Assembly (NCBI GenBank): GCA_001768515.1
Contig: MEOA01000021.1
Span: forward strand, 1-64,000
Length of the DNA: 64,000 nucleotides
Source of the DNA: Bacteroidetes bacterium GWE2_42_24
GTDB lineage: Bacteria > Bacteroidota > Bacteroidia > Bacteroidales > TTA-H9
Direction: 5' to 3'
The position numbers were made by a program, and so were the translations under genes. How positions within the stretch are numbered: the first letter of the stretch is position 1; every line of letters starts with the position of its first letter. The notes under the pieces are model-generated. The model searched no databases. It had not been told where the DNA came from and was given only the letters and a program-made list of their open reading frames with translations. Shown in pieces: positions 26,615 through 28,998 of the stretch.

Positions 26615-27325
26615 TATAGTTATCAACGATTTAGCAGGAAATCATTTTAGTAGTTTTACCTGAAACTAAAGCCGGGGTAAAAAATACAACCAGGTTGATT
26701 GGAGGTTTGTGCCTTTATTGTTAGAATATGTGGCCGGATTCAAAAGTTTAGTTGAAGATTCAGCTCACATACGGTGTTATAGTAAGTTACTTTAATTGTA
26801 TCGTCCCCGACTATTAAAACCCAATCAGTATCAGAGAGTATCGCATCAACCGGATACAGTACATTTCAGCTTTTATAAGGCTGAGAAAAATGTGTCATAT
26901 ATTCAGATGGACCGTCGATTAACCGTAGATCAACCGTAGATCAACCGTAGATCAACCGTAGATCAACCGTAGATCAAGCGTATGGCCAGGGTCAGTTCAC
27001 GATTGATTTTCGCATGATTTCCGATGTATATTCTTTTAAAAGCATACTGTTATGCAACAAAAACAGTACCAAGGCAGGTTCTTTTTTTTGTTTGAGAGAA
27101 GAAAACTGTTTATTGGCAACACCCCCTGGCCAAGCTGAAATCATTGAATTAGCAGAAGTTCTATGTACTGGCCTGGCATTACCCGATAAAAAGAAAACCA
27201 GATAATCCGATCTTAGCAAAAGCAAGAATGGTAAAACAAAATGATATTCAAAGACTAATTAAGGTTATCGTCAAAAAAAATAAAAAAAAAGCAAAAAATA
27301 ATTACCAGCATTTTTGAAAAAACGC
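26615..27325. other. Intergenic region without recognised gene
   Basis: About 0.7 kb. It contains the 11-bp tandem array at 26911-26985. At about 27000-27220 a stretch is open on both strands (possible 63- and 77-residue peptides), but neither looks like a known protein. No RNA gene was recognised. Confidence 0.55.
26911..26985 (+). repeat. 11-bp tandem repeat array A
   Basis: Five perfect head-to-tail copies of AACCGTAGATC at 26921-26975, flanked by degenerate units on the left (ACCGTCGATT) and right (AAGCGTATGG). The same motif, reverse-complemented and more degenerate, forms array B at 51615-51669. The period is close to one helical turn. Confidence 0.9.
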
Positions 27326-27333
27326 TAATTTTG
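27326..27333 (+). promoter_or_regulatory. Bacteroidota -7 promoter element (TAATTTTG) of leader transcript
   Basis: TAATTTTG lies 39 bases before the ATG of the 30-codon leader ORF. A transcript from here would meet the strong terminator at 27492-27525 after about 180 bases. Confidence 0.6.
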
Positions 27334-27372
27334 CCACTTCAAACGAATCGATACAGGATTTAAAAAAAACTC

Positions 27373-27465
27373 ATGAGCACATTCACCTTCACCCCGTCAT
27401 TTATTCAGCTCGTGGCTGTCAATGCCACAACGGCCGGGATATGTTGTGTTCGTTTGTTTCCGTAA
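27373..27465 (+). CDS. Candidate leader peptide, 30 aa, before the MATE gene
   Basis: ATG to TAA, 30 codons, starting 40 bases after a -7 box and preceded by an A-rich TAAAAAAAACTC, as at other Bacteroidota starts. The peptide begins MSTFTFTPSFIQLVAVN and ends TTAGICCVRLFP, with a Cys-Cys pair near the end. A perfect 12-bp terminator begins 26 bases after the stop codon. GGCCGGG inside the ORF (27432-27438) could pair with CCCGGTC of the terminator stem (27495-27501), so an antiterminator is conceivable. It may be a regulatory leader peptide for the downstream exporter, or simply a short transcript or small RNA. Expression is unproven. Confidence 0.5.
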   Translation: MSTFTFTPSFIQLVAVNATTAGICCVRLFP

Positions 27466-27491
27466 ACAAGTTCAACATCATATAAAAAACC

Positions 27492-27525
27492 AAACCCGGT
27501 CAGCAAACTGACCGGGTTTTTTATT
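27492..27525 (+). terminator. Strong intrinsic terminator / possible attenuator before the MATE gene
   Basis: AAACCCGGTCAG pairs perfectly with CTGACCGGGTTT around a CAAA loop, followed by TTTTTTATTT. No normal gene lies between this terminator and the one at 26575, so it must end a short leader or regulatory transcript. The MATE start codon is 52 bases downstream. Confidence 0.85.
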
Positions 27526-27576: not shown

Positions 27577-28998
27577 ATGTTAAAAAGATCATACATCAAA
27601 ATGAATAGTCACCGACGAAGAGTGTTCCGGTTGATCGGAACAGCCATCGGAGGATCAGATCAGGACTTCACCAGTATGCGGGTAGGCAAGGCCATCTTCC
27701 TGCTTTCTCTTCCCATGGTGCTTGAAATGCTCATGGAATCAATATTTGCAGTAATCGACATCTTTTTCGTCTCACAACTGGGTGCTGATGCCATCGCAAC
27801 AGTAGGACTAACTGAGTCGTTGATGGTAATCGTCTATTCCATAGGATTTGGATTCAGCATGGCCACGACAGCCCTTGTCGCCCGGCGTATTGGTGAAAAG
27901 AACAGTAAAGGAGCTGCTGTAGCAGCAGGTCAGGCAATTCTGATCGGTTTAATGGTTTCTATCATCATAGCCATTCCCGGTGCCCTGTTTGCCGGTGATT
28001 TACTTTCTTTAATGGGTGCCTCGCCGGAACTCGTTGCCCGGAATGCAGGTTATACACATATCATGTTCGCCGGGAACACTGTTGTGATGTTACTCTTTAT
28101 CATCAATGCAATTTTCAGGAGTGCAGGAGATGCTGCGATTTCAATGCGTGTGCTTATGGTCGCTAACCTGATCAACATTGTATTAGACCCGATTCTGATC
28201 TTTGGATGGGGTCCGATTCCCGCGATCGGCATTGAGGGAGCAGCCTTTGCAACCAATATCGGGCGTGGAATTGCTGTGCTTTATCAATTGAAGATACTGG
28301 CCGGACAAAGTTCACGAATCCACATACAATGGCGCCTTCTCAGGCCCAAACCTGCCATTCTCATTCAATTGATTAAGCTCTCACTGGGTGCCATCGGGCA
28401 AAACCTGATTGCAACAGCCAGTTGGATCTTCATGGTACGTTTGGTTTCTCACTTTGGAAGTGTGGCCATGGCCGGATACACGATTGGCATCAGGGTTATC
28501 ATGTTTTCACTGATGCCGAGTTCAGGACTTGGCAACGCAGCCGCAACCCTCGTTGGGCAGAATCTTGGTGCCGGGAAACCCGACAGGGCGCAAAGGTCAG
28601 TATGGATTACCGGATTTGTCAACATGGCCTTGCTGGGATTCATCTCTGTTTTTTTCATCATAATCCCTGAGCAGTTTATCAGGTTGTTTATCGACGACTA
28701 TGCAGTCATCGTGCAGGGGGCACTCTGCCTGAAGATAGTGGGAGCAGGAATGCTTTTTTATGCGATGGGGATGGTAATGCATCAGGCACTCAATGGTGCC
28801 GGCGATACAATAACCCCTACACTGCTCAACCTGATCTGTTTCTGGGCAATTGAAATTCCATTGGCCTGGTTTCTTGCATTAAAAGGCGGATTCAACGTTG
28901 AAGGAGTCTATCTTGCTATCGTAATTGCAGAAAGCACACTTACATTGCTTGGTATGTGGGTTTTCAGCCGTGGAAAATGGAAACTGAAGAAAATTTAG
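27577..28998 (+). CDS. MATE-family multidrug/sodium or proton antiporter
   Basis: 473 residues. A short basic cytoplasmic N-terminus is followed by about twelve transmembrane helices in two homologous halves, beginning IFLLSLPMVLEMLMESIFAVIDIFFVSQLG, broken here as LSLPMVLEMLMESI and AVIDIFFVSQLGADAIATVG. This is the characteristic MATE start with the membrane-embedded aspartate (VID). The second half carries the matching GYTIGIRVIMFSLMPSSGLGNAAATLVGQ-type segment. Such proteins export cationic drugs or metabolites using Na+ or H+ gradients. An earlier ATG than 27601 is used here (27577); either is possible. Expression may be controlled by the leader ORF and terminator just upstream. A 12-bp terminator follows. 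Confidence 0.92.
   Translation: MLKRSYIKMNSHRRRVFRLIGTAIGGSDQDFTSMRVGKAIFLLSLPMVLEMLMESIFAVIDIFFVSQLGADAIATVGLTESLMVIVYSIGFGFSMATTALVARRIGEKNSKGAAVAAGQAILIGLMVSIIIAIPGALFAGDLLSLMGASPELVARNAGYTHIMFAGNTVVMLLFIINAIFRSAGDAAISMRVLMVANLINIVLDPILIFGWGPIPAIGIEGAAFATNIGRGIAVLYQLKILAGQSSRIHIQWRLLRPKPAILIQLIKLSLGAIGQNLIATASWIFMVRLVSHFGSVAMAGYTIGIRVIMFSLMPSSGLGNAAATLVGQNLGAGKPDRAQRSVWITGFVNMALLGFISVFFIIIPEQFIRLFIDDYAVIVQGALCLKIVGAGMLFYAMGMVMHQALNGAGDTITPTLLNLICFWAIEIPLAWFLALKGGFNVEGVYLAIVIAESTLTLLGMWVFSRGKWKLKKI

Follow-up and report, generated by a model that had tools for sequence, protein, structure and literature searches.

A MATE family exporter gene in Bacteroidetes bacterium GWE2_42_24 is preceded by a short open reading frame (ORF) and a strong terminator, an arrangement that raises the question of whether the ribosome decides if the exporter is transcribed and, if so, what it senses. 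The locus lies in a stretch of 64,000 nucleotides (contig MEOA01000021.1, positions 1 to 64,000, forward strand), which we call the window. The regulated gene (27577..28998, + strand) encodes a protein of 473 aa with two stretches of the MatE domain (PF01554, 1.9e-62) and a match above cut-off to TIGR00797; no equivalog cut-off was reached, and therefore no substrate could be assigned. On the sequence comparisons described here, we consider it quite likely that a ribosome-dependent transcription attenuator controls this exporter and answers slowed translation.

The leader begins with a predicted -7 promoter box of the Bacteroidota type (TAATTTTG, 27326..27333, + strand), for which a start site is expected near 27340; a clear -33 TTTG at standard spacing was not found in the promoter region of the window. 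It continues with a predicted ORF of 30 codons (MSTFTFTPSFIQLVAVNATTAGICCVRLFP, 27373..27465, + strand, with its ATG at 27373 and its TAA ending at 27465) and closes with an intrinsic terminator (27492..27522, + strand, -20.7 kcal/mol), whose perfect 12-bp stem (AAACCCGGTCAG at 27492-27503 and CTGACCGGGTTT at 27508-27519) starts 26 nt past the ORF stop, encloses a 4-nt loop and is followed by a T-run to 27522. An earlier note, made from the letters of this DNA, had listed the -7 box, the 30-codon ORF, the 12-bp terminator and the MATE gene, and all of them can be read directly in the sequence. The MATE gene does follow the terminator as stated there, but at 54 nt from the end of the T-run to its ATG rather than the 52 bases given. 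Four RNA arms can be distinguished in this leader: arm 1 (CCCG, 27393..27396, + strand, codons 7-8), arm 2 (GGCCGGG, 27432..27438, + strand, codons 20-22), arm 3 (CCCGGTC, 27495..27501, + strand) and arm 4, with arms 3 and 4 forming the terminator. Further upstream, between an aminotransferase gene and the leader, the window holds tandem copies of about 11 bases (GTAGATCAACC, 26915-26980), and a related degenerate array (CGGTCAATCTACGGTTAATGTA) occupies the corresponding place in the relative G002.

We compared 16 MATE leaders, four from the window's family, 11 from a second family and one, L084, from another lineage. The window's family is represented by its four closest MATE genes, namely G000, G002 (92% MATE identity), G001 (79%) and G004 (62%), all with the leader layout. 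A scan of reference genomes contributed three further leaders (L055, L056 and L084), and a pattern search followed by a family search around G308 yielded the second family, in which 11/11 of the MATE orthologs found (identity of at least 75%, with L055 and L056 counted among them) carry the layout. All 16 leaders have TAnnTTTG 29-53 nt 5′ of the leader ATG, an ATG-started ORF of 26-30 codons in the same place, a CCGGG that starts at codon 21.0-23.7, a stop codon 8-24 nt past CCGGG (17 nt in eight of them), a separation of 43-56 nt between arms 2 and 3, and an intrinsic terminator between the promoter box and the MATE gene. The ORF holds its place even in L084, whose leader peptide cannot be aligned to the others. 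The reading in the earlier note depended on the ORF being kept in relatives and on the MATE gene having no promoter of its own after the terminator; the ORF is kept in 16/16 MATE leaders, and TAnnTTTG was found between terminator and MATE gene in none of them.

The layout is also specific and phylogenetically coherent. Of 198 related genomes, 5 contain the exact arm pattern RCCGGG-N35-60-AACCCGG-N6-24-CCGGGTTTT and 0 its reversed control; all five sites are of leader type, three before MATE genes and two before aminotransferase genes with Phe/Tyr-rich leaders. Most matches to a looser pattern were set aside as coincidences in coding sequence, in tRNA or at gene ends. A protein tree of 66 rows unites the 17 rows from the two families that bear the attenuator, equivalent to 15 distinct genes, in a single clade (support 99/98), inside which we found no leaderless member. 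L084 falls outside this clade, beside L069, a sister MATE gene with CCGGG and a CCCGG/CCGGG-T terminator upstream (L069:1429-1556) and no comparable leader ORF; this region is perhaps a decayed attenuator. In a scan of 80, the terminators before other MATE orthologs (L127, L131, L132, L133 and L106) look like the ends of upstream genes and were rejected. A further relative, L182 (NZ_MH547561.1 12967-14319; 51% identity to the window's MATE gene), resides on Pseudomonas and Acinetobacter plasmids among YciI and VOC/glyoxalase-family genes and recombinases.

The core of the proposed switch is a choice made by arm 3, which is common to a terminator and to a candidate antiterminator with arm 2. 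The pairing of GGCCGGG with CCCGGTC suggested in the earlier note is borne out in the window, where 27432-27438 and 27495-27501 form six Watson-Crick pairs and one G.U, and upstream of orthologous MATE genes it is kept by compensatory changes. CCGGG in arm 2 is invariant (16/16). The base just 5′ of it forms a Watson-Crick pair with arm 3 in 12/15 distinct leaders (shuffle p 0.003), with G-C or A-U depending on the lineage, while its arm-3 partner fits the 3′ arm of the terminator in just 5/15 (p 0.44); in G001, G002, G308 and others the terminator is mismatched and the antiterminator perfect. Compensatory changes keep this pairing even where they break the terminator, and selection therefore acts on the arm 2:arm 3 pairing itself. 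Judged by these sequences, the antiterminator is under selection and is mutually exclusive with the terminator. For arms 2-4 we relied on a direct scripted comparison across leaders, because MAFFT shifted arm 3 in some rows of the alignment.

The relative strength of the two structures varies. In the window the antiterminator duplex, which contains the G.U, is weaker than the terminator (-14.8 vs -20.7 kcal/mol), and this order is reversed in G002, G001, G004 and G405; in G402 and G406 the arm 2:arm 3 pairing is limited to 5 bp plus one G.U. Between arms 2 and 3 the window folds a long imperfect hairpin (27439-27490) that spans the stop codon and is also present in G002, and the lineages beyond these two fold other hairpins in that region.

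A third pairing would make the choice depend on events in the ORF. When RNA from 30 nt before the ORF ATG up to arm 2 was folded, CCGGG paired upstream in 16/16 folds with a probability of 0.60-0.93; the partner is in most cases a C-rich arm 1 in codons 4-9, and in L084 it lies just 5′ of the leader ATG. The window's own arm 1 is short, with 4 bp and flanking pairs. In the second family, whose 11 leaders align without gaps, 68% of the cells for arm 1:arm 2 are paired vs 33-46% when the arms are slid, and 10 cells have changed on both sides, a number reached by 5/500 shuffles. We rate this protector helix, with its moderate covariation, as likely, because RNAalifold recovered the inner hairpin alone and did not report arm 1:arm 2, and because the single-sequence significance of the helix is modest. 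The inner hairpin lies between arms 1 and 2 in the RNA fold of the window (GTGGC-TGTCAAT-GCCAC, 27412..27428, + strand), whereas the GTGGC of second-family leaders has its partner, GCCAC, upstream. The addition of the protector helix would give the leader the 1:2, 2:3, 3:4 logic of trp-type attenuators.

The proposed mechanism follows this logic. RNA polymerase would start at the -7 box and make the leader RNA, in which arm 2 can take either of two partners: with arm 1 (codons 7-8 in the window, 4-9 in relatives) it would form the protector hairpin and leave arm 3 free for the terminator, and with arm 3 it would form the antiterminator and prevent termination. If the leader is not translated, 1:2 and then 3:4 would form, and transcription would stop near 27522. 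Fast translation would also leave the exporter off, since the ribosome would pass arm 2 and end slightly beyond it during synthesis of arms 3 and 4. A ribosome slowed within about the first 16 codons, however, would cover arm 1 and leave arm 2 free, so that 2:3 could form and the MATE gene would be transcribed. The parts of this leader, their conservation and the selection on arm 2:arm 3 emerge from the comparison with relatives; from the anatomy we infer translation of the leader ORF, a role for the ribosome, and a natural signal that consists of slowed translation (e.g., under antibiotics) and not of a single amino acid in short supply. The leader attenuator of the MATE exporter is real and conserved, and it is probably translation-coupled.

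Leaders with readable control codons and the same arms provide an internal control. Phe/Tyr-rich leaders with the arms of the MATE leaders occur at L137:1449-1573, L138 (reverse strand) 1441-1567 and L159:1434-1579. The leaders MKLSTLYYWFYFYLDITAGMEKNCN and MILTVNKYWFYFYYRMLHK, from the exact arm pattern, precede a class I/II aminotransferase gene, and MQAFSGVYYFFFFYFGFYFKRSTGNAVIIN, from the wider pattern, precedes a prephenate dehydratase gene (Pfam PDT, 7.6e-55). Their codon content makes them probable aromatic amino-acid attenuators, and read as such they provide a calibration of the arms: the last control codon stands several codons 5′ of CCGGG, the stop lies about 18 nt past CCGGG in 2/3, and the geometry of the MATE leaders matches. 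No Rfam family was noted for these aromatic leaders. Short ORFs before a gene for a small TPR protein (MKCFNIHINSITGRLTYDERKYCDPGIFIIYR, MKNPNLHIDSLFVGQGAYEIRIGISGSKMKR and MNLVSHISLPAYRSTMFDVWQTPTGYFIKF, at L144:1429-1585, L151 (reverse strand) 1428-1574 and L165:1367-1511) come with a -7 box and CCGGG/CCCGG/CCGGG-T arms in two other Bacteroidales genomes. An attenuator of this kind may control the small TPR protein as a second gene family.

What the MATE leaders sense is harder to read from their peptides. Among the 16 leaders, no run of control codons is conserved for any amino acid, and no arrest motif is firmly conserved. The dN/dS of the leaders is not low, so that clear purifying selection is absent from the peptides, and the pattern of codon substitution is uninformative; for this reason the case for translation is built on conservation of the ORF and on geometry. 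Comparison among orthologs, which the earlier note had put forward for both ORF and peptide, bears out the former and finds no clear purifying selection on the latter. The two adjacent Cys codons of the window (codons 24-25, TGT TGT), which are shared with G002, had suggested control by cysteine supply. They are missing from the other 14 of the 16 leaders, and they lie 3′ of GGCCGGG, where a stalled ribosome would therefore cover arm 2 and favour termination, whereas the aromatic control codons lie 5′ of arm 2; a MATE exporter, moreover, has no evident link to Cys synthesis. Given codons that are neither conserved nor on the right side of arm 2, we rejected cysteine control and regard an attenuator that senses cysteine through Cys24-Cys25 as highly improbable. 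Translation-dependent attenuation, the other half of the earlier interpretation, stands on the layout of 16 leaders, the compensatory changes and the aromatic control. A drug-specific arrest leader is a more serious competitor: [FLI]-V-A-V near codons 13-18 would arrest the ribosome and place its leading edge immediately 5′ of arm 2, in an erm/mef-like manner or through phenicol/oxazolidinone-type stalling after Ala, with a particular antibiotic. Ala stands 17-19 nt 5′ of CCGGG in 14/16 leaders, and codons 2-17 favour Ala, Thr and Phe and hold almost no Gly, although the P values for composition are not independent because the sequences are related. Stalling by chloramphenicol and linezolid is strongest after Ala and weaker after Ser/Thr, and Ala/Thr-rich codons could thus suit phenicol or oxazolidinone stalling (PMC8987054). 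However, this Ala falls within an RNA hairpin, one half of which is GTGGC, the sequence of the most conserved codons (Val-Ala). A fixed arrest peptide, which conservation of Val-Ala had suggested, was demoted on this ground and on the dN/dS; the unalignable peptide of L084 also speaks against drug-specific arrest, which we find doubtful. Since GTGGC forms a hairpin and purifying selection is not clear, we consider a leader that senses slowed translation in general a better explanation than a specific arrest peptide. In its strictest form, which we offer tentatively, the ORF would act as a meter of translation rate with neither control codons nor arrest peptide: the position of the ribosome relative to three arms alone would matter, and any slowdown in the first ~16 codons would induce the MATE gene.

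Two further explanations would dispense with the ribosome. A ligand-binding riboswitch or a protein-bound leader could work through this terminator and antiterminator, in which case the ORF would be incidental, as the weakly constrained peptide and the several hairpins that fold in the leader would allow. Yet the ORF of 26-30 codons, with its stop 8-24 nt past arm 2, recurs in 16/16 leaders including L084, a large conserved aptamer-like sequence is absent, and the arms recur in leaders whose control codons are obvious, all of which makes such a leader rather improbable. Searches against Rfam 15 gave no match at or above gathering score in the window and chance-level matches in relatives, and a known riboswitch or RNA family was rejected accordingly. 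The ORF might also be a coincidence beside an ordinary terminator of upstream transcription, with the MATE gene on its own promoter. Short ORFs are indeed common (the 8 kb searched holds 103 with a length of 25 aa or more), but conservation of the whole layout, the compensatory changes, the specificity of the pattern and the absence of a -7 box after the terminator in every leader leave this explanation with very little probability.

The ribosome-dependent attenuator proposed here has relatives among known systems. In bmrB-bmrCD of Bacillus subtilis, as experimentally tested, translation of a leader ORF with no obvious run of control codons controls terminator read-through before a multidrug transporter, and several ribosome-targeting antibiotics induce it; unlike the MATE case, it concerns an ABC transporter in Bacillota, a 53-codon leader and arms unrelated in sequence (PMC4191407). 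The mef(E)/mel leader of Streptococcus pneumoniae likewise combines a leader peptide, competing stem-loops and an intrinsic terminator before an efflux gene, but it serves an MFS pump and is macrolide-specific, with an 8-residue arrest peptide, MTASMRLR, whose motif the MATE leaders lack (PMC4335068). At vmlR of B. subtilis, a stall in the uORF blocks an anti-antiterminator comparable to arm 1:arm 2 and the antiterminator forms; the product is an ABC-F ribosome protection factor, and the cognate drugs are known (PMC9226507). These three nearest systems are all from Bacillota, and none controls a MATE gene. Trp-type attenuators, including L137, L138 and L159, share the 1:2, 2:3, 3:4 logic, and these three aromatic leaders also share the CCGGG/CCCGG/CCGGG-T arms and the order Bacteroidales; they differ from the MATE leaders in carrying control-codon runs that match their product. 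In E. coli topAI, stalls at different codons allow one uORF, toiL, to sense ribosome-targeting antibiotics of several classes, as our proposal would have it, but toiL acts on translation initiation and Rho instead of an intrinsic terminator (PMC12121999). In Bacteroidota, the tetQ leader of Bacteroides CTnDOT, as cited in PMC5418344, is a case of leader-mediated attenuation of a resistance gene, which according to that citation controls translation of a ribosome-protection gene and not transcription of a pump. Leader-like sORFs are described for B. thetaiotaomicron (PMC7366714), and Flavobacterium shows signs of attenuation by leader peptides before amino-acid operons (PMC9723704).

Among the titles and abstracts listed by searches of an open-access library, we found no earlier report of a MATE pump under leader-peptide or transcription attenuation; attenuation of efflux-pump transcription by the ribosome is represented by a few ABC and MFS systems of Bacillota (PMC4191407, PMC4335068). 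A conserved MATE case in Bacteroidota suggests that these exporters respond to inhibitors or stress of translation, and that coupling between the position of the ribosome and termination extends in this phylum from amino-acid operons to stress genes. If the leader does meter translation rate, a single Bacteroidales arm cassette (CCGGG / CCCGG / CCGGG-T) would serve amino-acid operons, efflux and perhaps the small TPR protein. The simple arm pattern can serve as a finder for such switches in an order in which few have been described.
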